Both the position numbers and the translations under genes were made by a program. From Sulfurovum sp. NBC37-1 (GTDB lineage: Bacteria > Campylobacterota > Campylobacteria > Campylobacterales > Sulfurovaceae): DNA of 64,000 nt. Where the stretch lies: the NCBI RefSeq assembly GCF_000010345.1, contig NC_009663.1, positions 868,001 to 932,000 of the forward strand. Direction: 5' to 3'. Below, one piece after another: positions 21,962 through 44,541 of this stretch. Every line of letters begins with the position of its first letter. Position 1 is the stretch's first letter. The notes under the pieces were generated by a model. The model did not search any database and had not been told where the DNA came from. It saw nothing but the letters and a program-made list of their open reading frames with translations.

Positions 21962-22696
21962 ATGAGAAGTACTTTATCAGCTATATTTTTTACAATTGTA
22001 CTTGGCTTTATTATATCCGGATGTCAATCATCACATAAAGTTCTACCGTCAACAAAGCAAAATGTACTATTTCAATACTCCACTCTTGATGCCTTGCTCC
22101 AAGGTGCCTATGATGGTAATATGAGTTGTGGTGAGTTGAAAGATAATGGTGATTTTGGTTTAGGTACATTCAATGCCCTGGATGGTGAAATGATAGTGAT
22201 GGATGGGCAAATATATCAGGTAGCATCAGATGGTGTTGCACGAGTGATGGATGACAGTATAAAAATACCATTTGCCACCGTAGCATACTTTGAAGCAGAT
22301 CAAACGGTAGCGCTAAAGCAATCTATGGATTGCTCAGAATTAAAAACATACATAGATGATGTGCTGCCTGCTAAAAATATCACTTATGGTATCAAAATAA
22401 AAGGGTTATTCAGTTACATTAAGACAAGAAGTGTTCCACGACAAACTAAACCATACCCTTTATTGGTTGATGTGATTAAAACGCAGCCAACTTTTGAATT
22501 TTTTCAGCAAAGAGGTACCATTGTTGGATTTAGGCTACCTGAATATATAGGAGAAGTAAATGTTGCCGGATATCATTTTCATTTTCTGACACAAGACAAA
22601 AAAGCAGGCGGTCATGTATTGGAGTGCCAAGTGAAAGATGTAATCATAGAGATAGATTATATGAGTAATTGGCAGATACTGTTACCTACTACATGA
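21962..22696 (+). CDS. Acetolactate decarboxylase, exported as a lipoprotein
   Basis: A 244-residue alpha-acetolactate decarboxylase (acetolactate to acetoin and CO2). Family marks are LLQGAYDGNMSCGELKDNGDFGLGTFNALDGEM near the N-terminus, the catalytic-Arg region KTRSVPRQTKPYPL, and the zinc-binding HFHFLTQDKKAGGHVLE. Unlike most cytoplasmic or Gram-positive enzymes, it starts with a lipoprotein signal (ISGC, Cys21), so it should be anchored in the periplasm or outer membrane. The ATG follows GGGAGAAGGAACA. No acetolactate synthase or butanediol dehydrogenase adjoins. The assignment is strong; the purpose of external acetoin or CO2 formation is unknown. Confidence 0.88.
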   Translation: MRSTLSAIFFTIVLGFIISGCQSSHKVLPSTKQNVLFQYSTLDALLQGAYDGNMSCGELKDNGDFGLGTFNALDGEMIVMDGQIYQVASDGVARVMDDSIKIPFATVAYFEADQTVALKQSMDCSELKTYIDDVLPAKNITYGIKIKGLFSYIKTRSVPRQTKPYPLLVDVIKTQPTFEFFQQRGTIVGFRLPEYIGEVNVAGYHFHFLTQDKKAGGHVLECQVKDVIIEIDYMSNWQILLPTT

Positions 22697-27876: not shown

Positions 27877-28079
27877 GCGAGGATTGTTTTATGGAAAGTT
27901 ATACCAAATCCGTAAATAGAGATTCAACACTCCGCATTCGCCCTATATTAGTCTGCGTATATTTTAATAAAGCAGGGAGTATACTATTAAGAAGGGAGCT
28001 TGAATAATTTGCTATGAAAATGCAAGAGATCGATAGAGATTTACAGGTTCCAAGAAAAACACAAATGAAAGGAGACGAA

Positions 28080-29825
28080 ATGTCACAGAAGATACACCCA
28101 TTCATTAAAGAGATCGCCAAAGCAACAAAAGAGGGAGTAGTTACCCGCCGTGACTTTTTTCAGTACGCGGCAGCGTTTGGTATGTCGATTTTTACTGCAG
28201 GAAGTCTCATTGGCCTGTCGGCTTCGGAAATCAGTGCCGATACACATATCGACTGGAAAGATCTTGCTTTGGAAAGTCCTTTTGAGGTTAAAAATATTCT
28301 GATCCAAAAAGCTGAAACGGACTGTTCGAAATCCGGTTGCAGTATAGTGAATGCCGGCAGGGGAAATCCCAATTTCCTCAATACGCTGGTGCGTAAATCA
28401 CTGGCACTTTTAACGCTCTTTGCTGCAGATATGGCTGAGAAGAATTCTAAAATTATAGATGTAGGATATCGGCAAAGCAAAGAAGGAATGTACAATGCGT
28501 TAAAGAAATTTCTGGCAAAACACAAATATGATACGGAAGCCGATTTTTTGGGCAGAAGTATAGAATATGCAAAAAATGAGACAGAAATGGATGCCGATGA
28601 ATTGGTTTATGAACTCATGGATGGCGTGCAGGGAGATTTTTATCCGGATCCCCCCCGTATCTTTCCCGCCACTGAAAAAATCGTCCGAAAATATCTTGAC
28701 AGGGTTGTTTTCTCCAATAAGCCCCCTCAGGGCGATTTCCATCTTTTTGTAACAGAGGGGGCAACGGCGGCCATGATCTATATTTTCAACTCTCTGAGAG
28801 AAAATATGGTATTGCTTCCCGGAGACAAGGTGGCTATTGTGACGCCTATTTTCTCTCCATACCTGGAACTGCCAGTACTGAAAGATTATGGTCTGGAATC
28901 GGTCTATATCCGTGGTGATGAAAAAATGGGTTGGCAGATTCCCGATAGTGAAGTGTCCAAGCTGAAGGACCGGAAAGTCAAGGCACTCTATATGGTCAAC
29001 CCGACCAATCCAACCTCGGTTTCACTGAATGCGGATACGGTCAAGCGTATGGCCGATACAATACGGATGCACAATAAGGATATGATCATTATCTCCGATA
29101 CCGTGTATGCCAGTTTTGTCGATGAATTCAATACTTTTGGTAAAGAACTGCCTGAAAATATTCTGGGTGTTTACTCCTATTCAAAATATTTCGGGGTTAC
29201 CGGCTGGCGGCTTGGTGTTGTGATGGTTCACAAAAACAATGTGGTTGACCGGCTCATCAAGAAGCTTCCAAGATCCAAGCAGGCCCGCTTGGACTTCCGA
29301 TATCGTCTGGTCTCTACCAAGCCGAATGAGATCCCATTCTATGAACGTCTGGAAATAGACAGCCGGCAGGTGGCTCTAGCGCATACGGGAGGACTTTCCG
29401 GTCCGCAGCAGGTAGCGATGTCCCTTTTTTCGCTTTATGAGCTCATCGACGAAAATTACAGCTACAAAAAATCTATTATGGGTATTCTCAAAAAACGATG
29501 GTCTGCACTGTTTGAAGCCTTGGATATGCCAGAGCCGGAAGGAAACAACCTGACACGCTACTATGCCCTGATTGATTTGAAAAAAATGGCGGAAAAGAAA
29601 CACGGCAGCGCGTTCGCGGAGCATCTGGTCAAAACGCATCCTCTTGAATTTTTATTCAGACTGGCGGAAGACCACCATACGGTCTGTCTACCCGGTGGAG
29701 GATTTGCCGGACCGAGGTGGTCACTCAGGGTGGCATTGGCCAACATTGACGAAGAAGATTGTCGGCAGATTGGGCATGCGATTGTCTCCGTGATGGACGG
29801 ATACAAAAAATCCATGCCGGTCTAA
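28080..29825 (+). CDS. Aspartate 4-decarboxylase / aspartate aminotransferase-like, Tat-exported
   Basis: A 581-residue fold-type I PLP enzyme of the bifunctional aspartate aminotransferase / L-aspartate beta-decarboxylase family (aspartate to alanine and CO2). Family landmarks include NAGRGNPNFLN, FVTEGATAAMIYIFNSL, VNPTNPTS, the PLP lysine K369 in YSYSKYFGVTGWRLG, and the C-terminal LPGGGFAGPRWSLRVALAN. The unusual part is the N-terminus: a twin-arginine motif TRRDFFQ about 22 residues in, followed by a hydrophobic stretch (YAAAFGMSIFTAGSLIGLSA). It is therefore predicted to be exported folded by Tat. The ATG at 28080 has AAAGGAGACGAA; an in-frame upstream ATG adds only 22 residues. An amidohydrolase gene follows 57 bp downstream. 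Confidence 0.9.
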   Translation: MSQKIHPFIKEIAKATKEGVVTRRDFFQYAAAFGMSIFTAGSLIGLSASEISADTHIDWKDLALESPFEVKNILIQKAETDCSKSGCSIVNAGRGNPNFLNTLVRKSLALLTLFAADMAEKNSKIIDVGYRQSKEGMYNALKKFLAKHKYDTEADFLGRSIEYAKNETEMDADELVYELMDGVQGDFYPDPPRIFPATEKIVRKYLDRVVFSNKPPQGDFHLFVTEGATAAMIYIFNSLRENMVLLPGDKVAIVTPIFSPYLELPVLKDYGLESVYIRGDEKMGWQIPDSEVSKLKDRKVKALYMVNPTNPTSVSLNADTVKRMADTIRMHNKDMIIISDTVYASFVDEFNTFGKELPENILGVYSYSKYFGVTGWRLGVVMVHKNNVVDRLIKKLPRSKQARLDFRYRLVSTKPNEIPFYERLEIDSRQVALAHTGGLSGPQQVAMSLFSLYELIDENYSYKKSIMGILKKRWSALFEALDMPEPEGNNLTRYYALIDLKKMAEKKHGSAFAEHLVKTHPLEFLFRLAEDHHTVCLPGGGFAGPRWSLRVALANIDEEDCRQIGHAIVSVMDGYKKSMPV

Positions 29826-29882: not shown

Positions 29883-30950
29883 ATGAAATTGTTTAATGTG
29901 AGATTATCGTGGATATTAGTGGTTTGGATGGTTGTTCTGACCTATGGGGTCAATGCTTCAGAGAAAGGATCACACTTAAACGTTGAATCAGAGAAAAGCA
30001 AATATGAAGTGACAGATGCCCATTTGCATTATGTGGACTTTTTGCAGAAAAGTGACGGAATAAAAGATCTTCTTAAGATGATGGACCGTACCGGAGTCAA
30101 GCATGCGATGCTCAATGGATTGGCGGTTGTGAAAAAATGGAATGCTGTTGATCCCGTTCAGCCAAAATATTATCTTGCCGATGATTCACGAAGCTATTGG
30201 TACAGTGCTACGGATGTTATTGTTGCAAGAGCGCTTGAAACCCTTTCTGCATCAGAGCGCAGAAGATTCCATCCGTTTATCTGCGGGTTTAATCCTACGG
30301 ATAGGAATGCTGTTGACCACCTGAAGCGGATGTTTGCCCTGTATCCGGATACCTGGGAAGGGATCGGCGAGATCCTGACTCGGCATGATGATTTGACAGC
30401 ATTGACATACGGTGAGCAGGCCAGGGCAAATCATATCGCATTGGATGCTGTATATGATTTCGCCGCCGAGCATGACCTGCCTGTAACCATTCACAGTGAT
30501 ATCAGTTCGGTATGGGTACACAAGCCGCTCTATCTGGAAGAGATGGAAGAGGCTGTCAAAAACCATCCAAAAACCCGCATAGTCTGGGCACATGCCGGAG
30601 CCAGCCGGCGCATTGTGGTGCCCAATCTGGCATCCATTATGGGACGAATGCTCAAAACATATCCCAATCTCTGGATAGACCTCTCCTGGGTTGTCTATCC
30701 AAACTATGTCGCTCCACATGGAAAACCCAGCAAAGAGTGGGTAGCCTTGGTCGAAGAGTTTCCTGACAGATTTATGATCGGTACAGATAATATCGGTCAT
30801 TATGACAATTATGAACAGACCATAAAACGCTATTATGTTTTTCTGGATGCATTGTCTCCAAAAACCGCTCGTCTTGTGGCTGAGAAAAACTTTTTGAGCA
30901 TTCTGCCTTTGAGAGTACGCAAGAAGATAGATGCTTCTATTGCGAAGTAA
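29883..30950 (+). CDS. Exported amidohydrolase (amidohydrolase_2-like TIM barrel)
   Basis: A 355-residue metal-dependent hydrolase with an N-terminal signal peptide or anchor (LSWILVVWMVVLTYGVNAS). Metal motifs are DAHLHY (HxH at 47-49), VTIHSDIS, VWAHAGASRR and FMIGTDNIGH (final Asp). The PF04909 group includes hydrolases and also non-oxidative decarboxylases such as ACMSD, so a decarboxylase role is possible given the neighbours. It is probably co-transcribed with the Tat-exported aspartate decarboxylase. Its last 118 bp overlap the end of the convergent asparaginase gene. Confidence 0.82.
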   Translation: MKLFNVRLSWILVVWMVVLTYGVNASEKGSHLNVESEKSKYEVTDAHLHYVDFLQKSDGIKDLLKMMDRTGVKHAMLNGLAVVKKWNAVDPVQPKYYLADDSRSYWYSATDVIVARALETLSASERRRFHPFICGFNPTDRNAVDHLKRMFALYPDTWEGIGEILTRHDDLTALTYGEQARANHIALDAVYDFAAEHDLPVTIHSDISSVWVHKPLYLEEMEEAVKNHPKTRIVWAHAGASRRIVVPNLASIMGRMLKTYPNLWIDLSWVVYPNYVAPHGKPSKEWVALVEEFPDRFMIGTDNIGHYDNYEQTIKRYYVFLDALSPKTARLVAEKNFLSILPLRVRKKIDASIAK

Positions 30951-32020
30951 ATATTTTCTTTAGCCTTTGGGGGGTTCATATTGGGCTGTCCAAGTGCTAT
31001 CATCAGGAGAAGCCTGGCTTTGTACGGGCTCAGGTCTCCAGCCAGAAGTGTGCCCGCTTTAAGAAGGGAGGCACCGCCCCCTTCATCACCGTACAGCGGA
31101 TAGACACCTCCGTGCCGAACCCTGCTGGCGATCACCAGAGGTACATTTTTATTTAGAGCATATTTGCAGGCTTTGAATACAGACTGATTTACATTGCCTG
31201 CACCGACGCCAGCCACTACCAATCCTTTGGCACCATGATCGACAGCATATCGGATCAATGATCCGTCATCTCCCGCGTAAGAGTAGATCAACGGAATATC
31301 CGGCAATGTTTTTGGTGCGGACAGCTTTTTTTTGGCAGGTGCCGCATTGTAACCAATGATCCGATTGCCGACAATATAGCCGAGATACCCATGTCCTCCG
31401 GAATCAAATGTCTGCACATTGGTCGTATTGTCTTTACAGACATACCTGGCACTGTTGATGTATTGGTTCATGGTGACGGTCACTCCCCATTTTTCAGCTT
31501 TGGATGAAGCTGCCTGAAATACTGCATTGTAAAGATTGGCAGGGCCGTCAGGGCTCAGGTCGGAGTTGCTGCGCATCGAACCGACGAAAACAACCGGTTT
31601 TTGGGAATGGAGCGTTGTTTCGAGAAAATAAGCTCCCTCGGCCATCGTATCGGTACCGTGGGTTACCACAACGCCTGCTACTTCCGGGCGTCGTAACACA
31701 GCATCAACTTTCAGACTCAAGTTTCTCCATATTTTGGGTGTCATCTGTGAGCTGTCAATATTGCAGAACTCCACTGTTTCAATTTTGGCTATTTTACCAA
31801 GACCCGGTACAGCTTCCAGCAAGTCTTTTCCTGATACAGCCGGAACGACACCACCCGACACAGGGTCATATTTCATAGCAATGGTTCCTCCGGTAGTGAC
31901 CACTACGACTACGGGCAGGATATCTTTTGTGTCCGGTTTTAAATTTTTTTGTGCATGCAGTTGTGTCCACAAAGCGAGCAATGGCAAAATCAATTTTAGC
32001 AGTGAATGGAATTGTCTCAT
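30833..32020 (-). CDS. Type II L-asparaginase, exported
   Basis: A 395-residue periplasmic asparaginase (asparagine to aspartate and ammonia). Signal MRQFHSLLKLILPLLALWTQLHAQ; the two catalytic threonine regions are VVTTGGTIAMKYD and VVTHGTDTMAEGAYFLE; also FVGSMRS and the conserved IALGQPN end. Start follows a perfect AAAGGAGGTAACG. About 39 C-terminal residues beyond the family's usual end are antisense to the amidohydrolase gene, as if the original stop was lost. Its product is the substrate of the exported aspartate decarboxylase. Last gene of the eight-gene minus-strand run 41636-30833. Confidence 0.92.
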   Translation of the reverse strand: MRQFHSLLKLILPLLALWTQLHAQKNLKPDTKDILPVVVVVTTGGTIAMKYDPVSGGVVPAVSGKDLLEAVPGLGKIAKIETVEFCNIDSSQMTPKIWRNLSLKVDAVLRRPEVAGVVVTHGTDTMAEGAYFLETTLHSQKPVVFVGSMRSNSDLSPDGPANLYNAVFQAASSKAEKWGVTVTMNQYINSARYVCKDNTTNVQTFDSGGHGYLGYIVGNRIIGYNAAPAKKKLSAPKTLPDIPLIYSYAGDDGSLIRYAVDHGAKGLVVAGVGAGNVNQSVFKACKYALNKNVPLVIASRVRHGGVYPLYGDEGGGASLLKAGTLLAGDLSPYKARLLLMIALGQPNMNPPKAKENIYFAIEASIFLRTLKGRMLKKFFSATRRAVFGDNASRKT

Positions 32021-32057: not shown

Positions 32058-32993
32058 TTATTTAAAACCGATAGATTTTTCCCACTCTTTCAAATTCATT
32101 TTCTTTAGTTGCCCAAAGCCCTCTTTGGGGATCGCATCTTTCGCCAGTACGACATAAGGGGCAACGGTCAATGCTGTGCCTACCTCACCGGGCTTCATGA
32201 TGACATAGGCATAGCTGATATACGATCGTTCGTACAAAACACTTTGGTCTTTACCGCAGGCAGCAACACTCCAGAGAACAGATTTTCGGTGTTTTTGGAG
32301 AAATGCATCCAAGTCCTTATCATTGGCATTTTTTGTCCAGACTCCGGCATCTTCGATAAACAGAGAGGCATCTTTGGTGCGGTCTTTTGCAATATTGATA
32401 ACAATGTAAGACCAGACACCATATGATTCATTTTTGGCAGCGTCGGGTTCCCCTTTTTTTGGCCGGTACGATGTGACGCTTTTGTTGGCGCAAATGGTAT
32501 GGGCACCGGGAACCAGAGGAAAACGGCGTTTTCTCTCGGTACCAAAGAGCGCTTTACCCGCCTCAATCAAAGGGGCACCGTCATAAACCTTCAGGTCGGA
32601 GCCATCATACTGTTTGACGGTAAAAAGAGGTTTTTCTTTTTTCTCTTTTATCGTTTCGGAAACAGCAAGGTCATACCCCCATATCTGTCCTGCCAGGCCG
32701 GAAAAAGATGAAGCTGTCAGCATATTGATCTGACCGACATAGGCATCATTTGCTTCCGCCCGATCATAGGCGACAATGTTGTCGAGAAGCATATCATCCG
32801 TTTTTTTAACGGTACCGGCTGAGACTTTCAGCACGGATACATAACCAAGACCCTCCGCACCTGGATTTCCATATCCGTCACAATACTGTTTGAATGGGCT
32901 TATGGCATCTTTGTTGATACTCTCCTGTGCCTGGATAGAACTGAAAAGAGTTCCTGTCAGTACACAAACGGTTAAAATAGTAGAAAACTTCAT
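32058..32993 (-). CDS. hdcA: Pyruvoyl-dependent histidine decarboxylase, exported
   Basis: A 311-residue proenzyme of the pyruvoyl histidine decarboxylase family (histidine to histamine and CO2). Strong family blocks are AISPFKQYCDGYGNPGA, YVSVLKVSAGTVKKTDD, YVGQINMLTASSFSGLAGQIWG, GAHTICANKS, LFIEDAGVWTKN and YVIMKPGEVG. The self-cleavage Ser-Ser is at 95-96, matching the known Ser81-Ser82 site, so it should split into beta and alpha chains with an N-terminal pyruvoyl group. Unlike the classical cytoplasmic enzymes, it begins with a Sec signal (MKFSTILTVCVLTGTLFSSIQA). The start follows AAAGGATCAAAG. Its first four bases overlap the stop of the Lnt-like gene. No histidine/histamine antiporter adjoins. 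Confidence 0.93.
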   Translation of the reverse strand: MKFSTILTVCVLTGTLFSSIQAQESINKDAISPFKQYCDGYGNPGAEGLGYVSVLKVSAGTVKKTDDMLLDNIVAYDRAEANDAYVGQINMLTASSFSGLAGQIWGYDLAVSETIKEKKEKPLFTVKQYDGSDLKVYDGAPLIEAGKALFGTERKRRFPLVPGAHTICANKSVTSYRPKKGEPDAAKNESYGVWSYIVINIAKDRTKDASLFIEDAGVWTKNANDKDLDAFLQKHRKSVLWSVAACGKDQSVLYERSYISYAYVIMKPGEVGTALTVAPYVVLAKDAIPKEGFGQLKKMNLKEWEKSIGFK

Positions 32994-34498
32994 CTTTGAT
33001 CCTTTTTTTGTTTTTTGAAATGATTCCAAACTGCCAAGAAAAACAGCAGTATAAGTACAAACATAGCAATATATGCAAGCAAATTGCCGATGTGAGTATA
33101 GAGGGTGTCCGTTCTCTTAACAGGCAGAGAAGCGATCAATATACTCTCATCGTCTCCAAATGCAGTCATAGCTGCACGGATCTGACCGAGATTGTCAAAT
33201 CCCATTGAAGTAGCCTCATTTGCCGATCTGAACAGGGAAAACCCTCCCCCTACAGCGTGAATTCGTGCCATCAGAGTATGCCGTATCAGCATACCGCGCC
33301 AGTCAAGACCGGGGAGCAGAACCAGGTCGACTCCGAGCCTTGCCTGTGTTAACGATATTTGCGGGAAATCGTAATCATAACAGATAGCTCCCGCCATTTT
33401 ACCATATTTTGTCCTGATAGCTTTCAGTGGGGCACGACCGGGAACACTTCCTTCCCCCGGGACGGGGTGGTGCTTGAGATATGTTTCGGCGATGGTACCG
33501 TCATCTCTCAGCCAGGTGAATTTGTTCTTCATCTTATACAGTTCGCTCTGTTCTTCTTTCGGGAGCAATAGAGCATAGGCTGCAACGATTGCAATATGAT
33601 GCTTTTTCGCCAGCCTGGAAAGTGTCCCCAGCAATGCCTTTTCCCCCTTGGTTGAAACGATTGTCGATACTTCTCCCCAGACGGCTATGTCGGCTCCCTT
33701 CGCGGCGGCTTTGCGTGTGAGTTCTATCAGTCTTTGTGTATTCTGCAGAACATCGGGATCTTCGGGGTTTGGCAGTGCCTTGCTTACTGTCTGACCATTC
33801 GTGATGCCGGCAACAAGTATATGCTTGCCTTGGGGAACGGTACTGAGGCGTAAGTCACCCCATATATTCAGTCCAATAAAAATGATGACAAAGAGCACAA
33901 CGGATATTTTTATATTTGCGAAATTTCTCCGGAGAATGAAGAAAGCTCCCAAAACGGCAGCCCAGGACATCAGTGCCGATATGCCCAGAAATCCAAAAAG
34001 TGACGCTGTTTGGATAAGGGGGAGATTATATACCTGTGTATTAGCAAGAGATCCCCATACGCCGAACGGTGTATAAAATGCTTGCAGATATTCCAAGCTT
34101 ACTATAATGGCCGGAAAGGCAATGATGCTGGCAGTGTCATCAGTCCATTTCCGGATATAATCCCATATCAAAAAGGCAAGATAGTATCGTAGGCCTGTCA
34201 CTACCCCAAACATAATGGATACCGGCAAAGAGATCATTATGGGGTCTGATACTGACTTCGTGAATGTCAATACAGCTCCTACAACAAGGGTAAGCAGGAG
34301 CCATAGACGGCTTTTAAACTCATGATAGAGCGTGACATAGAGCAAGAATGGTATAAGCATAAACCAGCCGAATACTCCTGCGCCGCCACGCATATCAGAG
34401 CTAATCATCAAAAAAGAACCGATAATCAGCAATGAACTCCCGTGAAAGAACCGGTTATTTTTCAAAGATGTATAATCTGATTGTATATGGCTGTCCAA
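32990..34498 (-). CDS. Membrane nitrilase, apolipoprotein N-acyltransferase (Lnt)-like
   Basis: A 502-residue protein with about six to seven TM helices in residues 20-215, a periplasmic nitrilase domain (about 228-465), and a final TM (about 472-492), the layout of Lnt. The triad is E276 (VWGEVST), K342 (TYLKHHPVPGEG) and C373 (GAICYDYDFP). The KHHPVPGEG block resembles the KRHLVPFGE of Lnt. It starts with TTG behind AAGGTAGGTG. Its place inside the decarboxylase operon suggests a specialised N-acyltransferase or amidase rather than the housekeeping Lnt. It overlaps the histidine decarboxylase gene by four bases. Confidence 0.8.
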   Translation of the reverse strand: MDSHIQSDYTSLKNNRFFHGSSLLIIGSFLMISSDMRGGAGVFGWFMLIPFLLYVTLYHEFKSRLWLLLTLVVGAVLTFTKSVSDPIMISLPVSIMFGVVTGLRYYLAFLIWDYIRKWTDDTASIIAFPAIIVSLEYLQAFYTPFGVWGSLANTQVYNLPLIQTASLFGFLGISALMSWAAVLGAFFILRRNFANIKISVVLFVIIFIGLNIWGDLRLSTVPQGKHILVAGITNGQTVSKALPNPEDPDVLQNTQRLIELTRKAAAKGADIAVWGEVSTIVSTKGEKALLGTLSRLAKKHHIAIVAAYALLLPKEEQSELYKMKNKFTWLRDDGTIAETYLKHHPVPGEGSVPGRAPLKAIRTKYGKMAGAICYDYDFPQISLTQARLGVDLVLLPGLDWRGMLIRHTLMARIHAVGGGFSLFRSANEATSMGFDNLGQIRAAMTAFGDDESILIASLPVKRTDTLYTHIGNLLAYIAMFVLILLFFLAVWNHFKKQKKDQR

Positions 34499-35308: not shown

Positions 35309-37150
35309 TTACTGATTTCCCTTCATTACCCCATAAGCTTCACCCATCAGCATATGCTTATAGGTATTTGTGTCGTTGGGAGTTTTAGATGCTGTGATTT
35401 CAAATCCTGCTTTGTCTTGAAACAGTATGACAAAATCAGACCCGCCAAAGAGGAAATTTCCAAGCATATCACCCTTTTTATGAACAATACCGGGTCGGAC
35501 ATCCCCTTCGAAATTGACAGAAGAGACCTGAGCCATCCCCATAGGGATCAGTGCTACCAGACCATACTTTCCTGTATCTACCACCACAACCCCTCTGGTT
35601 TGGGTAAACTGCCAGCCTGTGGAGTCTATGGGGGCATATTTGCCTTGCTTTGCATCCCAGACTACTTCCAGTGAGACATTTTTCACAATATTTTTGACCT
35701 CTTTTATCTCTCCTCTCACAGCAAAATGGTAGCGGTGATAGTCGTTGACATCGAGGAAGGTATGTGTCAGAACTCCGTTGGCAAATGCATCTTTGTAGGG
35801 GCTGTCTTCACCAACCAGATCTTTGACACTGTAGTAGGTTGCAAGCTTGACTTTCAATCCGCCTTCTACTTTGATCCTGGAGTCTTTGTCAATAGCCCAG
35901 GTACCCTGAGGGACAGAATCTGCCGGGGCAACGACGATCGATGGATCGGCAGGTGTGGCAATCGGTCTCATTTCGGGAGACTTCAGGTAGCGGCTGAAAA
36001 AGTCGTTGAAAGTTTTCCAGTTGCTTGCGGGTTCATACCATCCGGTATCCAAACCAAATCGTGGGTCCTTATAGAACTCCTCATAGGTTTTTTTACTCCA
36101 AGACTTCTCTGTATCGAGAAACATTCCCCAGTCGTTGGCAAACGCTCTCGTCCAGGTAGAGAAAGGCTCATAGTATTGGAGCGTATTGTTGTAAAGCCCT
36201 TTTCCTTCAAGCTCTGGGAGGGGTTGGTCGATCAGAAAATAGAAGTAACAGAGACTCTGCATAATCTGCTCACGCAGAAGATGCTTGGGGTGCTTGAGAA
36301 CCTCTGACGGAATCAATTCGACAGCTTTGTCAAGATAGGCATAATAGTCATTGAGATTCTGTACAGGATTGGTTTTGGTATCCGGGTTGACGACTTTTGC
36401 CTTTGCGATCGATTTTTCCAAAAGCCTTTTGAGTTCAGGATTCTTTTTTAGCAGAGTGATAAGCTTTTGGGTAATTGGCTTGTGCGCCTGAGCATCTGTT
36501 GATTTTTTGATGGGATCCACATAGATAAAACTAACAAACCCAAGCTGAGATAGCACCATACCGTATTTTTTGGTGATATGCAGAAATTTGATGTTGTATG
36601 TCATATCACCTACCTGTTCCAGATGCCTGATCGACAACTCATGTTTGAGTGATTTTGTCAACTGTGCTTTTGCCTTCTTTCTTACCTCTTCCTGTGCTAC
36701 TCTCTTTTTGTGGTAGACAAATTCATATTCGGCAGCAAAGCCTCCGATTTTTTTGCCGCTTTTAGGATCTTTGGCCCAGACCCGGCCGACACCGGCTACG
36801 ACCGTATCGCCTTTGACGCCGCTGGCTTTTGCCATGATTGATTCCAGTACAGCACCATGGTGAAACTGTTTTTTAGCTTCCTTCAGTGAAATCTCATACG
36901 ATTGGGGAGGAAGCACGGAGGTGTAGTACATCACATTGAAATTTTCTATGCCGGCATCCTGAAGCGCCAGGTCATAAGAGAATGTTTCGTAGGGATCGGG
37001 TGGTATGCCGTCATTGGACTGACCAGCACCGGTTGTGGCAAAATAGGCGGTGGGGATTCTAACCCCCAGCGATGTGTCGGCATATACTACACTCGAACTT
37101 ATCATTCCAATCAGGAAAACGATACCTGTAAACAGTTTTAACTTTTTCAT
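35309..37150 (-). CDS. Exported fusion: pyruvoyl arginine-decarboxylase domain + PSD-like decarboxylase domain
   Basis: A 613-residue exported protein (signal about 1-24, MKKLKLFTGIVFLIGMISSS). Residues about 28-210 match pyruvoyl-dependent arginine decarboxylase: IPTAYFATTGAG, SYDLALQDAGIENFNVM, the pyruvoyl-forming YYTSVLPP (Thr77-Ser78 in place of Ser-Ser), the conserved Glu in AEYEF, and a C-terminal GFVSFIY strand. After a helical linker, residues about 375-585 match the phosphatidylserine decarboxylase family: FNDFFSRYL, VAPADS, DYHRYHFAVRG, DTGKYGLVALIPMGMAQVSSV, and the processing Gly-Ser in FLFGGSDF (570-571). The ATG at 37150 follows AAGGAAAG. Both halves belong to self-processing pyruvoyl families. 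I know of no described fusion of the two. Likely substrates are amino acids rather than lipids. Confidence 0.85.
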   Translation of the reverse strand: MKKLKLFTGIVFLIGMISSSVVYADTSLGVRIPTAYFATTGAGQSNDGIPPDPYETFSYDLALQDAGIENFNVMYYTSVLPPQSYEISLKEAKKQFHHGAVLESIMAKASGVKGDTVVAGVGRVWAKDPKSGKKIGGFAAEYEFVYHKKRVAQEEVRKKAKAQLTKSLKHELSIRHLEQVGDMTYNIKFLHITKKYGMVLSQLGFVSFIYVDPIKKSTDAQAHKPITQKLITLLKKNPELKRLLEKSIAKAKVVNPDTKTNPVQNLNDYYAYLDKAVELIPSEVLKHPKHLLREQIMQSLCYFYFLIDQPLPELEGKGLYNNTLQYYEPFSTWTRAFANDWGMFLDTEKSWSKKTYEEFYKDPRFGLDTGWYEPASNWKTFNDFFSRYLKSPEMRPIATPADPSIVVAPADSVPQGTWAIDKDSRIKVEGGLKVKLATYYSVKDLVGEDSPYKDAFANGVLTHTFLDVNDYHRYHFAVRGEIKEVKNIVKNVSLEVVWDAKQGKYAPIDSTGWQFTQTRGVVVVDTGKYGLVALIPMGMAQVSSVNFEGDVRPGIVHKKGDMLGNFLFGGSDFVILFQDKAGFEITASKTPNDTNTYKHMLMGEAYGVMKGNQ

Positions 37151-37265
37151 TTTCTTTCCTTCTATCAATAGTTTAGGTTTCATTTGAAACTGAAACCAAC
37201 TCTGAACTGCCTCAAAAGGAGTTTTGATCTTGAGTTCCTTTCTATATCATTATAGCCAGAATTTA

Positions 37266-38543
37266 CTAGTTGCTATGCCAATTCTCTTCTATCCAGTTGA
37301 GAATTTTCTCATTGGATATCATGATAGCTCCCATCTGACAATGCTCTTCAGCACCTTCATCTTTTGTAAAGAGCAGATATGTCTTGGGGCATCTCAGGGC
37401 GTCATAAAGCTCTTTTGCTTGTCCGGGAAGATCTTTATCTCCTTCGGAATCAACCACCAGAGTTTTGCATCGTATCTTTGTTGCCCTCTCTTTCATATTG
37501 TAGGGCTTTAATTTTTTAATTAAGTCCGTCGGAGATTTGGCTCCAAAAGTAAACATACCGTTTGCAAAGAACCAGCCTACATCAACATCTTTGTTCATAA
37601 TTTCCATAATTTCCTTATTGAACTTTATAGATGCCTTTTTGTTGTTGAGAATTTTCTTTATGTCTGGTGGGGATTTTTTGATGACATTTGCATAAAAATC
37701 ATATACTCCTCCATTTGCAACACATAGGTTAATGCGATGCTCGAAAGAGACAGCCCGTGGAGCAAGATAGCCTCCGAAACTAATGCCTATGAGCCCGATC
37801 CTCTTTGGGTTGACTTCTGGAAGAGTCAGAGCAAAATCTACCACAGGTGTCACTACACTTTCCCAGTTTGGACGAAACGGTATCTTCTGTACACGAATCA
37901 CTTCACCCTGTCCCGGTCCTTCAAATAAAAGAACATTGAATTCTCTTTCAACCGCAAGATGACCAATTTCAAAATAGAGCTCTTCTGCTGTGCCGTCAAA
38001 TCCACTATGGATGATCAAAAGTGGTCTCTTTTTGCCGGAGTTGTCCACAAGACAGAGGTAACCTGGCAGAGTAGTTCCCTCAAAGGGTATCTTCACAAAC
38101 TTTATAGGTTTTTTGGAGAGTTTTGCAGCTTTGAGGAAAGTATTACGGCTCTTTTTCCAAGTCTTGACAATCCGTGGATCATTGGGATTAGTATGAAGGA
38201 AAAATTCCGCAGTGCGGTAGTAGTTGGAGGAGCGAAAATATGCCTCTTTTGCACTTATCATGTGCCCTTTTGATAGAAACTTGTCCGCTCTCTTTTCAAG
38301 GCGCTTTGCAGTCGCTAACCACTCTTTGTACCAGCTTTCATTATCGCTTTCCTGAATGCGGCGAACTGTACTCAAACACTCTCCGATATCTGCACCCCCT
38401 GTGCTGCTGTAGCCTATAGTTCTGAGCGTCTGAAAGGAATATTGTGGATCCTTAAAGATGCATTCCACTCCCTGAACGAAAACAGTAGAAAAAAGAATGC
38501 TCAAAGCTAAAAAAAGGATCCGTAAATTTAGCATTATAATCAT
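37266..38543 (-). CDS. Exported alpha/beta hydrolase (FrsA / pseudooxynicotine-hydrolase-like), copy 1
   Basis: A 425-residue serine hydrolase with a signal peptide (LRILFLALSILFSTVFVQG). A helical N-terminal cap region (KGHMISAKEAYFRSSNYYRTAEF) precedes the alpha/beta fold. The nucleophile is S255 in GISFGG, the acid probably lies in VVDSEGDKD, and the His is in GAEEHC. Related cytoplasmic enzymes cleave C-C or ester bonds. It overlaps its upstream paralogue by four bases (ATGA). The pair may have different substrates, since the nucleophile elbows differ (GISFGG versus GISNGG). Confidence 0.82.
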   Translation of the reverse strand: MIIMLNLRILFLALSILFSTVFVQGVECIFKDPQYSFQTLRTIGYSSTGGADIGECLSTVRRIQESDNESWYKEWLATAKRLEKRADKFLSKGHMISAKEAYFRSSNYYRTAEFFLHTNPNDPRIVKTWKKSRNTFLKAAKLSKKPIKFVKIPFEGTTLPGYLCLVDNSGKKRPLLIIHSGFDGTAEELYFEIGHLAVEREFNVLLFEGPGQGEVIRVQKIPFRPNWESVVTPVVDFALTLPEVNPKRIGLIGISFGGYLAPRAVSFEHRINLCVANGGVYDFYANVIKKSPPDIKKILNNKKASIKFNKEIMEIMNKDVDVGWFFANGMFTFGAKSPTDLIKKLKPYNMKERATKIRCKTLVVDSEGDKDLPGQAKELYDALRCPKTYLLFTKDEGAEEHCQMGAIMISNEKILNWIEENWHSN

Positions 38544-39856
38544 TCCTTTGATTGATTCCCAAAGAGATCATCAAGCCAGTCAAAGACCACTTCAGCCATC
38601 AGGGTTCTATTCTCGCCGATACAGTGAGAAGAGGCCCCTTCATTTTCCGGAGTGATCACCAGTGTTTTGTTCTTGGTTCCTACTTTGTCCATAAACTCTT
38701 TTTGCTGCCGTTCAGTCTCTTTGTTGGCATACTCTCCCGCCCCGACAAGATCCAGTACCGGACTGGTAACCTTGGCTGGATCAAACTGAAACCCTTTGTT
38801 GGCTTCGATTTGCCCTTTGACATTTTCAGGGTCAAGCCCCCAGCGCCAAGTCACTGCAGAGGTCACCGCCTTCTTGAACGGCGGCCACTGGTCGATCTGT
38901 TTTTGCGTATCTTTGGAAAAAGGCATCTCTTTGAACATACGGTAGTTGTCGACAACGGCACTGCTGACAATAATTGCCTTGATCCGCTTTTCTACTGTCG
39001 CCGCACGCGGAACGAAGTAGCCGCCGTTACTGATACCGAACACGGCCAGTTGTTCAGGATCTACTTCGGGGAACTTCAAAACAACATCCAAAACAGCTTT
39101 CATCTGGGTTTCGGTATCTTTTCTGAAAAACTCTCCCTGGGCGGGGAGCATTCCCTGGCCGGGCAGGTCCACGGTGATAAAATTGTATCCGCGCTTGATC
39201 GTCTGAGGTTCAATGTAAAAGACAAGGTCCTCCATAAAAGTCTCGCCGCCACCTATCATCAAAAGCGTCTTGCGAGGTTTACCGTCTTTTTTGACGGGGT
39301 GGTAATACCCGGGGAGCTTTGTTTTTTCAAAAGGAACTTCAAAGTAGGTCATTGGAGGGTCGTACAGTTTTCCGGCTTCTTTCATGCAGAAGCGGGTCTT
39401 TTTGCCAAGTGTGTTGAACTTGGGATTGTCCGGCAGTATAGAGACCAGTGCCGTTCTGTAATAATTGGAGGCTTTCAGATACGCTTCACGGGCAGTAGCC
39501 TTATGGCCTTTTTCAAGAGCGGCTTTGGCACGGGACTCTTTCCTCTGAGCCATCTTTTCCCATTCGTTTTGCCAGCTTTTCGGATCGCCATCTGTAATAT
39601 TGCCGGCAGCATAAAATGCTTCTCCAAGTTCGGCACCGCCGTTCGATAAGCTGCCAAGGAGCCACTGAAAAGCGAAATCCATCTCTTCATCTTCAAAATG
39701 GTAACTTACATAGGAACGGTGTGCGTCATAGTTCTCTTTCTGTGCCGATATTGCCGATGCGTCTTTGTTCCTCATAGGAGCCTCCTCTTTGGCATACACC
39801 GAACTGTGCAGTGATGCAAAGAACAGGCAGATACCAAGTGCATTTAAAAACTTCAT
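38540..39856 (-). CDS. Exported alpha/beta hydrolase (FrsA / pseudooxynicotine-hydrolase-like), copy 2
   Basis: A 438-residue paralogue of the next gene, with signal peptide MKFLNALGICLFFASLHSSVYA. The shared cap is KGHKATAREAYLKASNYYRTAL, the nucleophile S276 in GISNGG, and the His in SSHCIGEN. The two are alike along their whole length and arose by tandem duplication, but have diverged far (they align mainly at motifs). It sits 37 bp downstream of the C69 dipeptidase. Confidence 0.82.
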   Translation of the reverse strand: MKFLNALGICLFFASLHSSVYAKEEAPMRNKDASAISAQKENYDAHRSYVSYHFEDEEMDFAFQWLLGSLSNGGAELGEAFYAAGNITDGDPKSWQNEWEKMAQRKESRAKAALEKGHKATAREAYLKASNYYRTALVSILPDNPKFNTLGKKTRFCMKEAGKLYDPPMTYFEVPFEKTKLPGYYHPVKKDGKPRKTLLMIGGGETFMEDLVFYIEPQTIKRGYNFITVDLPGQGMLPAQGEFFRKDTETQMKAVLDVVLKFPEVDPEQLAVFGISNGGYFVPRAATVEKRIKAIIVSSAVVDNYRMFKEMPFSKDTQKQIDQWPPFKKAVTSAVTWRWGLDPENVKGQIEANKGFQFDPAKVTSPVLDLVGAGEYANKETERQQKEFMDKVGTKNKTLVITPENEGASSHCIGENRTLMAEVVFDWLDDLFGNQSKE

Positions 39857-39893: not shown

Positions 39894-41636
39894 TTAATCC
39901 CCCGGGTGCATCTTCTTGGGCTTTTCGTAACGGATCGGACCATTCTTCCACTCGGAGCGTTTGTACCAGGCTTTGGGATAGCCAACTTCCTGTGCCATCT
40001 TCCCCGGTTCATTGACATAACCGTCACTGTATTTGGCTACCAGCTTCCAGGCAAGTTTCCACCAGGTACGATAGACATTCATCGCCGTATTGCGTGAAAA
40101 TTCACTGAGCATTGCTTTGGCTTGTTCCGGATCTTTCTTATAGACTTCAAGAGCAGACTTTTCGATTGCTTTGGTCCCTTCTATGGCCGCAAGTTCCAAC
40201 TCGTTCTGCTTCTCTTTGATGTCCTGGATAATGTAGCTGTATTTGATCGCAGCCCAGTTGGCTACGAAGTTAAAAGCCCACCAGACACTTTCTTGATCAA
40301 ACTTGTCACTGAAACCGGTATAGTACGGCTTCGGCACAGGGTCATGTGCACCTACATAAAAGGGTGTGATAACAGAACTCATTGGCTCATCCGGAGCAAA
40401 CCAAAACAGTCCACCGACAGGGTCAGGCAGCCAACTGCGCGCTTGGGCCACATAGGTATATCCCGAACGGTAAATAGAGAGAGGACGCTCCCAGGCACCT
40501 TTACGTCCGGTCAGTTTGCCTGTATCACCGCTGGCATCCATCGGGCCTGTATAACGATAGGGGTTTTCAAAAGGCCCGGCAGTGATACCCTTGCTTTGAT
40601 CAAATTCCGTCCCCTGATAATAATCTCTATAAAGGTTTATGACATCCTGTACACCCAGTTTTTTATCAGGTTTGATGGAGAAGGGGTACTTCCTGGTAAA
40701 ACCGTCTTTGACCCAAGGGGAGAGTTTGAGTGAAGGTGCGATCTTGGATTGTAGCCTCCAGACACGATGGAGTGAGTAGTAGGGGTGGCTGTACTCTCCT
40801 TCGCTGACAGTACGCAGCCAGTCAAGTTTTCCTTTTTTGGGATTCCACCATTGATGCTTTTTTGCGACATCAAAAAGATTTTTGGAATACATCATATCAG
40901 GATCATTCGGATCGACTTCACGGATACGGAACTCGTTGGCCGCGACGAAGATCTCGCCGTCGGGAACTTTTTTGGCTACCCATAGTCCCTTGCTTTTGTC
41001 CGGGCTGGGTGCCATCTCAAAGACCCATCCCTCTTTGGTATCAGCAACAGGCAGCACTTCCCCCGTACCATAATAGCCATAGGTGTCGATCAGCTCCCCC
41101 ATAAGCTTGATGGCGCATCTGGCTGTTTTGCAGCGCTCCATTGCGACACGAGCCAATTCGGCACTGTAAAATATTCTTTTACCAGGCTCGGGCTCCAGCG
41201 TCACCTTGGAACCATTGGTCGCTTCGCCCATCATCAACTGATGCTCATTCATCAATCCATAGCTGCCATCCATATAGGCATAGGTGTGTGCTACTTGGGG
41301 GATGAAGCCCAGAGGGATGCTTTGGGGCATATCATTGTCCACATAGATAGGTCCTCTATGAGTACCAATATATCGCCTCAGGACATTGGCATTGTATTCC
41401 GGTCTGCTACCCAGTGAAGAGGGATCATAATAAACAGGTCGTGTTGAGCCCTCTTTGTGATCTGCGGCCGGGACATAGACCAGACGGTTATCGAACATTT
41501 CGCTGTCATCAGAGTGCGCGACAAAGACGGAACCGTCCTTGCTGGCTCCCTTTGTGATGATCATTGTAGTGCAGGAGAAGAGAGGGATTGAGCTGAGCAG
41601 TGTGAAGAGAGTCAGCTGTCTGATAGATACTTTCAT
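39894..41636 (-). CDS. Exported C69-family dipeptidase
   Basis: A 580-residue Ntn-hydrolase of peptidase family C69 (PepD/U34 type). The catalytic nucleophile Cys22 (SCTTMIITKGASKDGSVFVAHSDD) directly follows the signal sequence (MKVSIRQLTLFTLLSSIPLFS), so signal cleavage could expose the Cys as N-terminus. Other family blocks are YGLMNEHQLMMGEATNGSK and GWVFEMAP. It should hydrolyse dipeptides in the periplasm, supplying free amino acids to the downstream asparaginase and decarboxylases. First gene of the minus-strand run. The FSC context is also a poor lipobox; lipidation would block the nucleophile's amino group. Confidence 0.87.
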   Translation of the reverse strand: MKVSIRQLTLFTLLSSIPLFSCTTMIITKGASKDGSVFVAHSDDSEMFDNRLVYVPAADHKEGSTRPVYYDPSSLGSRPEYNANVLRRYIGTHRGPIYVDNDMPQSIPLGFIPQVAHTYAYMDGSYGLMNEHQLMMGEATNGSKVTLEPEPGKRIFYSAELARVAMERCKTARCAIKLMGELIDTYGYYGTGEVLPVADTKEGWVFEMAPSPDKSKGLWVAKKVPDGEIFVAANEFRIREVDPNDPDMMYSKNLFDVAKKHQWWNPKKGKLDWLRTVSEGEYSHPYYSLHRVWRLQSKIAPSLKLSPWVKDGFTRKYPFSIKPDKKLGVQDVINLYRDYYQGTEFDQSKGITAGPFENPYRYTGPMDASGDTGKLTGRKGAWERPLSIYRSGYTYVAQARSWLPDPVGGLFWFAPDEPMSSVITPFYVGAHDPVPKPYYTGFSDKFDQESVWWAFNFVANWAAIKYSYIIQDIKEKQNELELAAIEGTKAIEKSALEVYKKDPEQAKAMLSEFSRNTAMNVYRTWWKLAWKLVAKYSDGYVNEPGKMAQEVGYPKAWYKRSEWKNGPIRYEKPKKMHPGD

Positions 41637-41947: not shown

Positions 41948-43171
41948 ATGAACAGAATATTGAACCGTTTAATCAAGCTAATAGGTATTGCGCTCTTGGC
42001 AAACACCCTATCGCTCTATGCAGCTCATCTGGATGCAAAGAACCCTTGTTATCAGTCGATTAAAAAAATAGATGAAACATACAAAAAGGATAAAGTATTC
42101 AAATTATTAATGGACCAATCTTTTACGCATATGGTTGAAGCTCCGGAAGGCTATATGCGTGGCGGAAACCCCTGGATAGGCAAAAGCTACAAAGACCTGC
42201 CGCCTTTTCTTGAAGAGTGGTGCGAGTTTCTGCCAAAAGCTATAGGGAGTGGGGATGACGGCTTGAAATATATTCAGGAGATGGATATGTTCAGCTATAA
42301 AAACCCTTTTGCCAAAACATTGTTTCAAAGCAAAACAGGAATGAAGCTTTTTGGTAACTATATGAAAGAGTATGGCCACTTCATGGATACACCGGCCTCC
42401 GGAAGATATATTGCCGAATGGCTTAATGATGACAGGATCGAAAAAGAGGATTATGCCTTGCCTGATCCCAAAGCGGATACTGGCGGGTTCAAAACTTTTA
42501 ATCAATTTTTTTCAAGAAGATTGAAAGATCACAAAGAGAGCCGTCCCCAGACGATGCCAAATCGTGACTATGTTATCACAGCACCTACAGACTGCATTAT
42601 CAATTCTATTCCCCAGGTTTTGATCGATGAAAACACACTGATTGCAACCAAGGGACACCAGAAACTCAATCTCAAACAGATGTTTGATGATTCGAGATAC
42701 TATAAAAAGTTTTTGGGCGGTACGGCAGTATCATGTGTCCTGATGCCAAATACCTATCACCACTACCATTCACCCATAGATGGAAAGATAGTTGAATCCA
42801 AAATTATCAGGGGTGCCCTGTTGGGCATGGACGACTTCCCCTCCTTTGTGCCAAAATACGGCAATGTCGGCTATTACGGTACGGATTTCAATCAGTTCAG
42901 CAGCTATAAACGGGGATACTTTATCGGAGATACCGGTAAATACGGATATGTCGGCATGGTGGCAGTCGGCTTGAGCAATATCGGTTCTATCGTTTTCAAT
43001 AAGAAGTATAAAAATATGACCAGGCCGGTTCCCGTCAAAAGAGGGGATGAATTAGGTTATTTTCTGTATGGAGGATCACTCTTCATAATGTTCTTTGAAA
43101 AAGGGAAGTTCAAATCGGACGCCATCAGAGTCCGGCTCGGAAATCAGATAGGTACTTTTGATACTCCATGA
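41948..43171 (+). CDS. Exported phosphatidylserine-decarboxylase-like pyruvoyl enzyme
   Basis: A 407-residue PSD-family protein with a Sec signal (LIKLIGIALLANTLSLYAA). Family marks are FNQFFSRRLKDHKESRP, VITAPTDC, NTYHHYHSPIDG (270-279), DTGKYGYVGMVAVGLSNIGSI, and the processing Gly-Ser in FLYGGSLF (G376-S377), where cleavage would create the pyruvoyl group. True PSDs face the cytoplasm; this one is predicted periplasmic and has a long extra N-terminal region (30-175). Related PSD-like enzymes, such as PsiD in Psilocybe, decarboxylate amino acids. The stop overlaps the start of the porin gene by four bases, so the two are translationally coupled. Confidence 0.87.
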   Translation: MNRILNRLIKLIGIALLANTLSLYAAHLDAKNPCYQSIKKIDETYKKDKVFKLLMDQSFTHMVEAPEGYMRGGNPWIGKSYKDLPPFLEEWCEFLPKAIGSGDDGLKYIQEMDMFSYKNPFAKTLFQSKTGMKLFGNYMKEYGHFMDTPASGRYIAEWLNDDRIEKEDYALPDPKADTGGFKTFNQFFSRRLKDHKESRPQTMPNRDYVITAPTDCIINSIPQVLIDENTLIATKGHQKLNLKQMFDDSRYYKKFLGGTAVSCVLMPNTYHHYHSPIDGKIVESKIIRGALLGMDDFPSFVPKYGNVGYYGTDFNQFSSYKRGYFIGDTGKYGYVGMVAVGLSNIGSIVFNKKYKNMTRPVPVKRGDELGYFLYGGSLFIMFFEKGKFKSDAIRVRLGNQIGTFDTP

Positions 43172-44541
43172 GATATATGGCAATTGGGGGACTGCTTGCA
43201 GGAGGGGCAATTTTCCTGTCAGCCGGTGATACATTATCATCTGCCTTTGAAGAGACTGTATTCAAAGGGCAGTTACGCTCCTACATGATGAAGAGGGGGT
43301 ATGATGAACTGGTAGAGGACTCCATGGGTATTTTTAAAGTACGACACTCATCTCACAAAGCTTCCAATGCAATAGGTGGATACTTTACGTTTGAGACGGG
43401 TTCTTTCTATCATTTGAGTGCCGGAGCCACTTTTTATACATCACAACCCCTTTTTCATAATCCGCCAAGTGAAGGCGGACTTCAACTGCTAAAAGATGAT
43501 CAGAGTGGTTACAGTGTCCTGGGTGAAGCATTTGTAAAATGGGCATATGGCGAGACAGTACTCAAGGTGGGAAGACAACGATTGAATGAATATCAGTTTT
43601 TGTCAGACAATGATATCCGTATGACACCTTATACGTATGAAGCGGTGATCCTGGAGAACAGGGATTATGAAAATATTACATTGCGTGCAGCTATCGTATC
43701 TGGTGTCAAGACGTTGGTTTCCACAACATATATAGATTTTGTCAACGCATCTAAAGATCTTCTCAAAGAGGAAACTGTTGACAGGAATCCGATACGGGGT
43801 GACTACAATCCGGCTCATTATGACAGCAATGGAAACTACATAGGGCCCCCAAAGAACCTTTATTTAGCTTCGATAGCCTATAAAGAGAAACAAACGGATC
43901 TGGAACTTTGGAACTATTATGTATCGGATTTTGTCAATTTTGTATATGCTGTCGGCTCTTATACTTTTCAAGCAGGTCGTTTTATCAATAGTCTCGGAGT
44001 TCAGTTTGTCAAGCAGGACGATGTCGGAGCGCATGTTGCCGGCAGTATCGATACCTATAGTTACGGTGCCAAACTGACAAGTGTCTATGATACATTTACT
44101 TTTACTTATGCGTTCAATAAAACAAAATATGATGAAAATTCTCTGGACGGCGGCAGCATTATCGATATGTGGGGTGCCAACCAACTTTACAGTGGTTTGA
44201 TGTATAACGGAGCCGACCAGGGAGGCACAATAAGCAATGTCATCACCGTGGAATATGATTTTCCGTTTTACGGCCTGAACTTCTCACTGTATGCCGGTAA
44301 ATTTGATCTGCCAAACAAATTGACAGATATTTTTGCTGATCAGGATAATCATGAATACGATATGATCATAAAATACAGACCCGAATGGAATAAGAAACTA
44401 CAGTTCAAAATAGAAGCCGCCTATATCGATTTTGATACAAATTATGATTTCAGAGCCTATGAAGATCTGCACGGATTTAATTTTCTTCATGTCTATGATG
44501 ATATTACAGACATGAGGTTTATTGTCAATTATTCTTTTTAG
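43168..44541 (+). CDS. Outer-membrane porin (OprD/Opr-like)
   Basis: A 457-residue barrel protein: signal region MRYMAIGGLLAGGAIFLSAG, early FKGQLRSYMMKRG, then many amphipathic strands (ATFYTSQPLF, LKVGRQRLNEYQFLSDNDIRM, TDLELWNYYVSDF) and a C-terminal FIVNYSF. The pattern fits the substrate-specific Opr/OprD porins of Campylobacterota. ATGA overlap with the PSD-like gene suggests that it brings the decarboxylase's substrate through the outer membrane or lets the product out. Confidence 0.82.
   Translation: MRYMAIGGLLAGGAIFLSAGDTLSSAFEETVFKGQLRSYMMKRGYDELVEDSMGIFKVRHSSHKASNAIGGYFTFETGSFYHLSAGATFYTSQPLFHNPPSEGGLQLLKDDQSGYSVLGEAFVKWAYGETVLKVGRQRLNEYQFLSDNDIRMTPYTYEAVILENRDYENITLRAAIVSGVKTLVSTTYIDFVNASKDLLKEETVDRNPIRGDYNPAHYDSNGNYIGPPKNLYLASIAYKEKQTDLELWNYYVSDFVNFVYAVGSYTFQAGRFINSLGVQFVKQDDVGAHVAGSIDTYSYGAKLTSVYDTFTFTYAFNKTKYDENSLDGGSIIDMWGANQLYSGLMYNGADQGGTISNVITVEYDFPFYGLNFSLYAGKFDLPNKLTDIFADQDNHEYDMIIKYRPEWNKKLQFKIEAAYIDFDTNYDFRAYEDLHGFNFLHVYDDITDMRFIVNYSF

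Follow-up and report, generated by a model that had tools for sequence, protein, structure and literature searches.

A single open reading frame joins two pyruvoyl-enzyme families behind a predicted export signal in Sulfurovum sp. NBC37-1

We analysed a stretch of 64,000 nucleotides of the genome of Sulfurovum sp. NBC37-1 (NC_009663.1, positions 868,001 to 932,000; the window, within which all positions below are counted). It holds a minus-strand gene in which a pyruvoyl-dependent arginine decarboxylase (PvlArgDC) is fused to a protein of the phosphatidylserine decarboxylase (PSD) family. A sequence-only reading of this gene had proposed that two unrelated pyruvoyl-enzyme families share one exported chain, and the Pfam families PF01862 and PF02666 both score above their cut-offs within the one open reading frame (ORF); the fusion is real. 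The features of the locus are collected in Table 1.

The fusion gene and its two domains

The ORF is uninterrupted up to its stop codon at 35309-35311. Its first ATG, at 37183, would give a protein of 624 aa, but the ATG of Met12 at 37150 (613 aa, P0001), with the ribosome-binding-like sequence AGGAAAG before it, is the likelier start. The N-terminus of the 613-aa protein, MKKLKLFTGIVFLIGMISSSVVYA, is predicted to be a Sec-type signal peptide that is cut after VVYA, in agreement with the export proposed earlier; this and all other signal peptides were called by eye together with a hydrophobicity window (Kyte-Doolittle, KD). At the junction the PvlArgDC part ends in SFIYVDP, followed by IKKSTDAQA and then by HKPITQ, which is the mature start of stand-alone PSD-like proteins, just past their signal peptides. 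No second signal peptide or relic of one was found at the junction, either in frame or in the other two frames of the same strand, and a single signal peptide is predicted to serve now for the export of both halves.

Table 1. Features of the fusion gene and of its surroundings in the window
Feature	Position	Strand	Basis
Fusion coding sequence, PvlArgDC + PSD-like, 613 aa (P0001)	35309..37150	-	ORF + Pfam
Predicted Sec-type signal peptide, residues 1-24	37079..37150	-	by eye; hydrophobic 12-mer KD 2.61
PvlArgDC domain, residues 32-205	36536..37057	-	PF01862 E 1.3e-28; 2qqd fold match Z 19.6
Thr77-Ser78, predicted first self-cleavage site / pyruvoyl centre 1	36917..36922	-	alignment to Ser52-Ser53, M. 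jannaschii PvlArgDC
Junction IKKSTDAQA, residues 214-222	36485..36511	-	alignments with stand-alone halves
PSD-family catalytic domain, residues 381-605	35336..36010	-	PF02666 E 5e-38; 7cnz fold match Z 11.9
Gly570-Ser571, predicted second self-cleavage site / pyruvoyl centre 2	35438..35443	-	alignment
Alpha-acetolactate decarboxylase, lipoprotein signal	21962..22696	+	PF03306 270 bits; MRSTLSAIFFTIVLGFIISGC
Exported (predicted) carbon-nitrogen hydrolase, N-carbamoylputrescine-amidase-like	26701..27834	-	PF00795; TIGR03381 123.5 bits, below cut-off 410; signal
Aspartate 4-decarboxylase (pyridoxal phosphate, PLP), twin-arginine (Tat-like) extension TRRDFF	28014..29825	+	NF006755 706.5 bits from residue 80
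Exported (predicted) type II-like asparaginase	30833..32020	-	PF00710/PF17763; TIGR00520 283 bits, below cut-off 314; signal
Exported (predicted) pyruvoyl-type histidine decarboxylase	32058..32993	-	PF02329 441.8 bits; TIGR00541 415.6 bits, above cut-off
Lnt-like membrane protein, carbon-nitrogen hydrolase domain	32990..34498	-	below Lnt cut-off
Two exported (predicted) FrsA-like alpha/beta hydrolases, directly upstream of fusion	37266..39856	-	PF06500; signals
C69-family dipeptidase, signal-like N-terminus	39894..41636	-	PF03577 193.7 bits; NF033678 172.8 bits, below cut-off 250
Second exported (predicted) PSD-like protein	41948..43171	+	PF02666 137.2 bits; N-terminal signal
OprD-family porin, adjoins second PSD-like gene	43168..44541	+	PF03573
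Exported (predicted) glutaminase	56559..57635	+	PF04960; NF009020 above cut-off; signal
OprD-family porin, adjoins glutaminase	57646..59082	+	PF03573
AspT-like aspartate:alanine exchanger	59114..60784	+	PF06826; TIGR03802 438.6 bits, below cut-off 547

The N-half matches PF01862, the family expected for it, with 100.3 bits against a cut-off of 22.7, and its predicted structure superimposes on the arginine decarboxylase subunit of M. jannaschii (2qqd_H) over 152 of 153 residues with a root-mean-square deviation (rmsd) of 1.8 A. A profile of this half and ten relatives was aligned to M. jannaschii PvlArgDC (1n2m/2qqd; residue numbers of the latter counted along the alignment). Thr77/Ser78 correspond to Ser52/Ser53, Asn72 to Asn47, Glu141 to Glu109, Asp60 to Asp35 and Leu63 to Leu38, so that the fusion resembles the archetype in fold, in the cleavage serine and in all of these positions; Ser78, which lies inside the motif YYTSVLPP (75-82), Asn72 and Glu141, which lies in AAEYE (139-143), are invariant across the 11 alignment rows. 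The threonine ahead of the cleavage serine, singled out in the sequence-only reading, does differ from the Ser-Ser pair of M. jannaschii but is not unusual: Thr-Ser (YTS) is found in all eight closest relatives and in a Lichenicola homologue, and judged by these sequences it is ordinary within the closest relatives. The AaxB protein of Chlamydophila is reportedly cut at a Thr-Ser pair as well, and we take a threonine in this place to be a feature of the AaxB-like branch of the family. The description of chlamydial AaxB, a further member of the PvlArgDC family, gives its own self-cleavage site as Ser53, and states that Glu109 helps cleavage in PvlArgDC (PMC2720952). Arginine is most likely the substrate of the N-half and agmatine its product; no gene for an AaxABC-like arginine:agmatine antiporter was seen among the scanned genes of the window, the scan covering part of the ORFs. 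Both M. jannaschii PvlArgDC and AaxB are stand-alone proteins of fewer than 200 aa which act in the cytoplasm, whereas the domain described here is fused and predicted to be exported.

The C-half matches PF02666 with 131.2 bits (cut-off 22). Its motifs are DYHRYH (470-475) and FGGSDF (568-573), the latter with Ser571 inside, and GGS, Asp411 and His472 are invariant across 13 alignment rows. Asp411, Asp470, His472 and Ser571 align with the D90/D142-H144-S254 set that E. coli PSD uses for self-cleavage (PMC7952604); in family, in fold and in this set the half is like E. coli PSD (7cnw, 6l06). Ser78 and Ser571 thus lie exactly where the candidate cleavage serines had been placed, each aligned to a known site. 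The fusion differs from E. coli PSD in being joined to another enzyme, in its predicted export and at the position of Tyr137. The lipid phosphate is bound by this residue, for which 85% of PSDs have Tyr and 15% Arg (PMC7952604); the fusion carries Phe. The same Phe occurs in nine of the ten readable C-half relatives of at least 45% identity (L118-L125 and L129; L130, covered at its C-terminal end alone, was left out of the count). Profile alignments place Phe there also in PsiD, a tryptophan decarboxylase, and in the Aspergillus arginine decarboxylase. Four other loci look like true PSDs, with Arg (L109, L113, L114) or Tyr (L115) at this position. The housekeeping PSDs of the genus have Tyr in 6/6 readable cases (ten loci, four of them unreadable in frame and left out) and the cleavage site MGST, and an ordinary PSD of this kind (Tyr, MGST) is encoded elsewhere in the NBC37-1 genome, against GGSD in the fusion. 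In the window's second PSD-like protein the position is occupied by Val; in further exported proteins of this kind it is Phe, Val, Leu or Met. L127 (2865-9750) and L126 (9865-11067) also encode members of the PSD family, exported or lipoprotein-like, in which Met or Phe stands here.

The C-half stays below the NCBIfam cut-offs for PSD equivalogs (66.9 of 111.75 bits and 78.6 of 371 bits), and its profile matches the tryptophan enzyme PsiD (8x4q; 134.7 bits) and the Aspergillus oryzae arginine decarboxylase (9jer; 132.6 bits) over profile positions 36-383, that is, nearly full length. Those enzymes are fungal, have a single centre and lack a PvlArgDC part, unlike the fusion; a separate PSDC N-terminal domain, presumably PF12588, gave no match to the fusion at E values up to 1 in the Pfam scan. 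We conclude that the C-half is probably not a phosphatidylserine decarboxylase and that an amino acid is its likelier substrate, because Phe replaces the phosphate-binding Tyr, as in PsiD and the Aspergillus arginine decarboxylase. Most likely it acts on a free amino acid other than that of the N-half.

AlphaFold2 was run on the fusion with 23 other alignment rows, and folds were compared with VIA-align. The model (mean per-residue confidence, pLDDT, 72.5; predicted template-modelling score, pTM, 0.45) is confident for the N-domain and fair for the C-domain; the stretch corresponding to the N-terminal amphipathic membrane helices of PSD was modelled with low confidence. The PSD-family fold expected of the C-half was recovered, with E. 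coli PSD (7cnz_C; rmsd 3.5 over 170 residues) ahead of PsiD (8zia, Z 9.8) and the Aspergillus arginine decarboxylase (9jf5, Z 9.8). VIA-align also listed LytM-like peptidases with Z values of 6-9.

Relatives and origin of the fusion

Two queries, the N-half and a homologue, picked up 62 loci in a scan of genomes. Among the 60 that can be read to the end (L040 and L075 run off the 3' end), no PvlArgDC ORF continues into a PSD domain. The nearest set (L017-L024, n = 8) is 63-73% identical to the N-half and entirely stand-alone; signal-like N-termini are present in 8/8 of these proteins versus one borderline case among the other 54. In a tree built from 60 of the 62 loci (short ones excluded by a length rule), the fusion and two plasmid homologues, the N-half is sister to L017 and L018 with support of 100/97. 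Four of the eight nearest-relative genomes (G564, G565, G566, G569) encode a separate C-half homologue of 69-73% identity, in each case with a signal-like N-terminus, and in G566 and G569 it lies at most 3 kb from the arginine decarboxylase gene. We regard the gene as a true fusion because its halves occur as separate exported proteins, about 70% identical, in half of these relative genomes. Fisher tests on the co-occurrence of the halves gave 2e-6 and 7e-8, values which ignore shared ancestry, mix phyla and are descriptive.

Stand-alone counterparts of both halves, about 60-74% identical and with signal peptides, are known from Desulfocapsa and other Desulfobacterota, WOR-1 and Omnitrophota, in all of which they are separate genes, in contrast to the single chain in Sulfurovum. 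A C-half homologue of 56-57% identity occurs in 3/394 other genomes of the Desulfobacterota sample among the matches listed, a list that ends at weak E-values. No second fusion was found among the matches listed for the Desulfobacterota, Omnitrophota and WOR-1 samples (395, 384 and 74 genomes), among 78 genomes of the own genus, or among 397 of the own phylum (the last by a PF01862 search only). PF01862 itself is present in 1/298 genomes of the order and 1/397 of the phylum (overlapping samples).

Sulfurovum sp. NBC37-1, an oxidiser of hydrogen, sulphide, sulphur and thiosulphate from vent sediment with a published GC content of 43.8% (PMC2628731), has a genome of a single complete contig (2,562,277 bases, three 16S copies); its 16S is 94.9% identical to that of Sulfurovum mangrovi. 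The GC fraction around the fusion is 0.42-0.47, close to that of the genome, and so gives no sign of recent transfer; a compositional island was rejected on the same grounds. A viral origin was likewise set aside (no relative in viral contigs, no phage record spanning both halves), as was a plasmid origin (no plasmid record that matches the protein over 80% of its length, no plasmid match at the DNA level).

Amino-acid enzymes around the fusion

The fusion lies within a cluster of amino-acid enzymes that spans 21.9 to 60.8 kb of the window and includes five decarboxylase families with export-type signals inside about 22 kb. Together with the stand-alone exported halves of other genomes, this cluster goes beyond what the sequence-only reading had described. 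The histidine decarboxylase, with the signal-like N-terminus MKFSTILTVCVLTGTLFSSIQA, belongs to the same family as HdcA (1pya, 1hq6), is separate from the fusion and, unlike HdcA, carries a predicted signal peptide; its family is present in 1/78 genomes of the genus, and the start of its gene is overlapped by 4 bp by the Lnt-like gene. An overlap of 4 bp also joins the second PSD-like gene to its OprD porin gene. The aspartate 4-decarboxylase carries an N-terminal extension (TRRDFF...ISA) which makes it 62-63 residues longer than two relatives (match from residue 17-18), and in the best 15 of 214 plasmid homologues the match begins no earlier than query residue 55; this suggests export through Tat, folded and loaded with cofactor. 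The alpha-acetolactate decarboxylase, judged by its lipoprotein signal, is probably a further exported decarboxylase. The signal of the C69 dipeptidase is weak (KD 1.81).

Similar groupings occur elsewhere. An Omnitrophota locus (L125) has aspD, aspT, an exported arginine decarboxylase, C69, a PSD-like gene and asparaginase in one run; a WOR-1 locus (L124) has arginine decarboxylase, a PSD paralogue, a glutaminase fragment, asparaginase and a PSD-like gene; and in L127 aspT and aspD accompany a PSD-like protein whose N-terminus resembles that of a lipoprotein. The grouping thus recurs in several phyla, which speaks for a common task. In the WOR-1 cluster, L019 (11863-12240) is a glutaminase homologue (62% over 100 aa) of which only a C-terminal fragment is present. 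In a Parabacteroides distasonis plasmid record (L016, 5989-11052), PvlArgDC, an NhaD antiporter and a C69 dipeptidase stand together, seemingly echoing the C69 link at the fusion locus.

A proposed bifunctional decarboxylase outside the cytoplasm, and its alternatives

With a probability of roughly two in three, the product of the gene is a bifunctional amino-acid decarboxylase that works outside the cytoplasm, with two self-cut pyruvoyl centres, set in a cluster for amino-acid breakdown; we infer cleavage, export, substrates and physiological role from the fusion and its two domains, their active-site residues, the separate exported partners elsewhere and the gene neighbourhood. The precursor would leave the cytoplasm unfolded through Sec, and in the periplasm each half would fold and cut itself, the PvlArgDC half at Thr77-Ser78 and the PSD-like half at Gly570-Ser571, to leave two pyruvoyl groups. 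The two cuts are computed to give mature chains of 53, 493 and 43 aa (5.8, 55.8 and 4.8 kDa); up to four chains had been suggested before, but three are predicted, the fourth piece being the signal peptide. The middle chain would carry the first pyruvoyl group at its N-terminus, as the arginine decarboxylase alpha chain, and would itself also be the beta chain of the PSD-like enzyme. The assembly would have to reconcile a domain that forms trimers with one that forms dimers. Sec would thus handle pyruvoyl enzymes that make their own cofactor, and Tat the PLP-loaded aspartate 4-decarboxylase; pyruvoyl enzymes would suit the periplasm because their cofactor comes from their own chain, whereas PLP would need to be supplied.

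Amino acids would enter through the outer-membrane porins and be decarboxylated or deamidated outside the cytoplasm by a set comprising the fusion and the exported histidine decarboxylase, asparaginase, glutaminase and dipeptidase. The periplasm could be buffered in this way, since decarboxylation consumes protons and deamidation releases ammonia, both of which raise the local pH, and such a rise would benefit a sulphur-oxidising host. That the three-chain, two-centre precursor forms the core of a periplasmic decarboxylation and deamidation island, a counterpart of the cytoplasmic acid-resistance decarboxylase systems, is a tentative proposal, to which we give somewhat less than even odds.

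Several points weigh against these proposals. Activity, cleavage and localisation are read from sequence, the export calls rest on the eye and the hydrophobicity window, and acid control is the weakest step. The middle of the fusion model (residues ~190-370) is poor, as is a model of the C-half by itself (mean pLDDT 54.7). E. coli PSD is slightly favoured when a single sequence is searched or folds are compared, PsiD when a profile is searched. Tyr137 is not an absolute marker, because one relative (L131, 47% identical) has Tyr there and E. coli Y137F retains about 50% of activity (PMC7952604). The two halves are non-adjacent in G564 and G565, and the histidine decarboxylase was rejected as a member of a conserved module, being absent from 12/12 relative genomes searched.

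The same enzyme might instead serve nutrition or polyamine supply, with the cluster degrading peptides and amides in the periplasm to yield nitrogen, CO2, amines or biofilm amines and with pH control incidental. This is a doubtful but substantial alternative, and it fits the dipeptidase, the porins, an oligopeptide ABC transporter and a 5'-nucleotidase-like protein among the neighbours of the fusion, the exported N-carbamoylputrescine-amidase-like protein and, farther off, adenine deaminase and oxoprolinase-type proteins. However, so many decarboxylase families with export signals exceed the needs of plain scavenging, and several of the reactions would give amines without obvious use to an autotroph. 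An unlikely variant is that one of the two centres is dead and that the non-cleaving half now regulates or scaffolds its partner: regulation of active decarboxylases by dead paralogues has precedents (PMC5201418), and the threonine at position 77, where M. jannaschii has serine, could be taken as a hint of it, yet every mapped processing and catalytic residue is kept in both halves and the Thr-Ser pair is common to all eight close relatives.

As to the second substrate, both halves could be arginine decarboxylases of unrelated origin whose pH optima may differ. The literature counts the PSD-family arginine decarboxylase as a pyruvoyl form of its own (PMC12283126), and arginine is possible as C-half substrate because such an enzyme, from Aspergillus oryzae, exists in the PDB (9jer/9jf5) and matches the C-half profile; since tryptophan-specific PsiD is matched equally well, other amino acids are as possible, and we consider two arginine decarboxylases in one chain rather improbable. 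Slightly more improbable still is that the C-half is a genuine phosphatidylserine decarboxylase which acts on lipids at the periplasmic face of the membrane. PF02666 membership, the conserved self-cleavage set and E. coli PSD as best fold match among PSD-family entries would speak for it, but against it stand the Phe at the phosphate-binding position, the missed equivalog cut-offs, the housekeeping PSD elsewhere in the genome and neighbours that handle amino acids. A sequencing error that joined two adjacent genes is very improbable: the halves are indeed separate genes in other genomes, yet this genome is complete in a single contig and a whole second signal peptide is gone, with no relic in the other two frames. 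A frameshift or assembly artefact was rejected as unlikely, as was a lost stop codon, after which the signal peptide of the partner would remain at the junction.

If the bifunctional, exported decarboxylase is confirmed, the supply-free cofactor would gain a use, decarboxylation outside the cytoplasm, the fusion would link two protein families functionally, many exported proteins annotated as phosphatidylserine decarboxylase may prove to be amino-acid decarboxylases, and vent bacteria would offer a system in which control of periplasmic pH can be tested. In openly licensed PMC papers we found no report of two pyruvoyl families in one chain, as the sequence-only reading had surmised, nor of a periplasmic pyruvoyl amino-acid decarboxylase or such an island; the genome has long been public, and an annotation or note may exist outside these papers. 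The 64-kb window has no Rfam match and no tRNA. Scans of the window, not used above, gave 37 sigma70-like sites versus 23.9 expected and 17 terminator-like sites versus 13.5.

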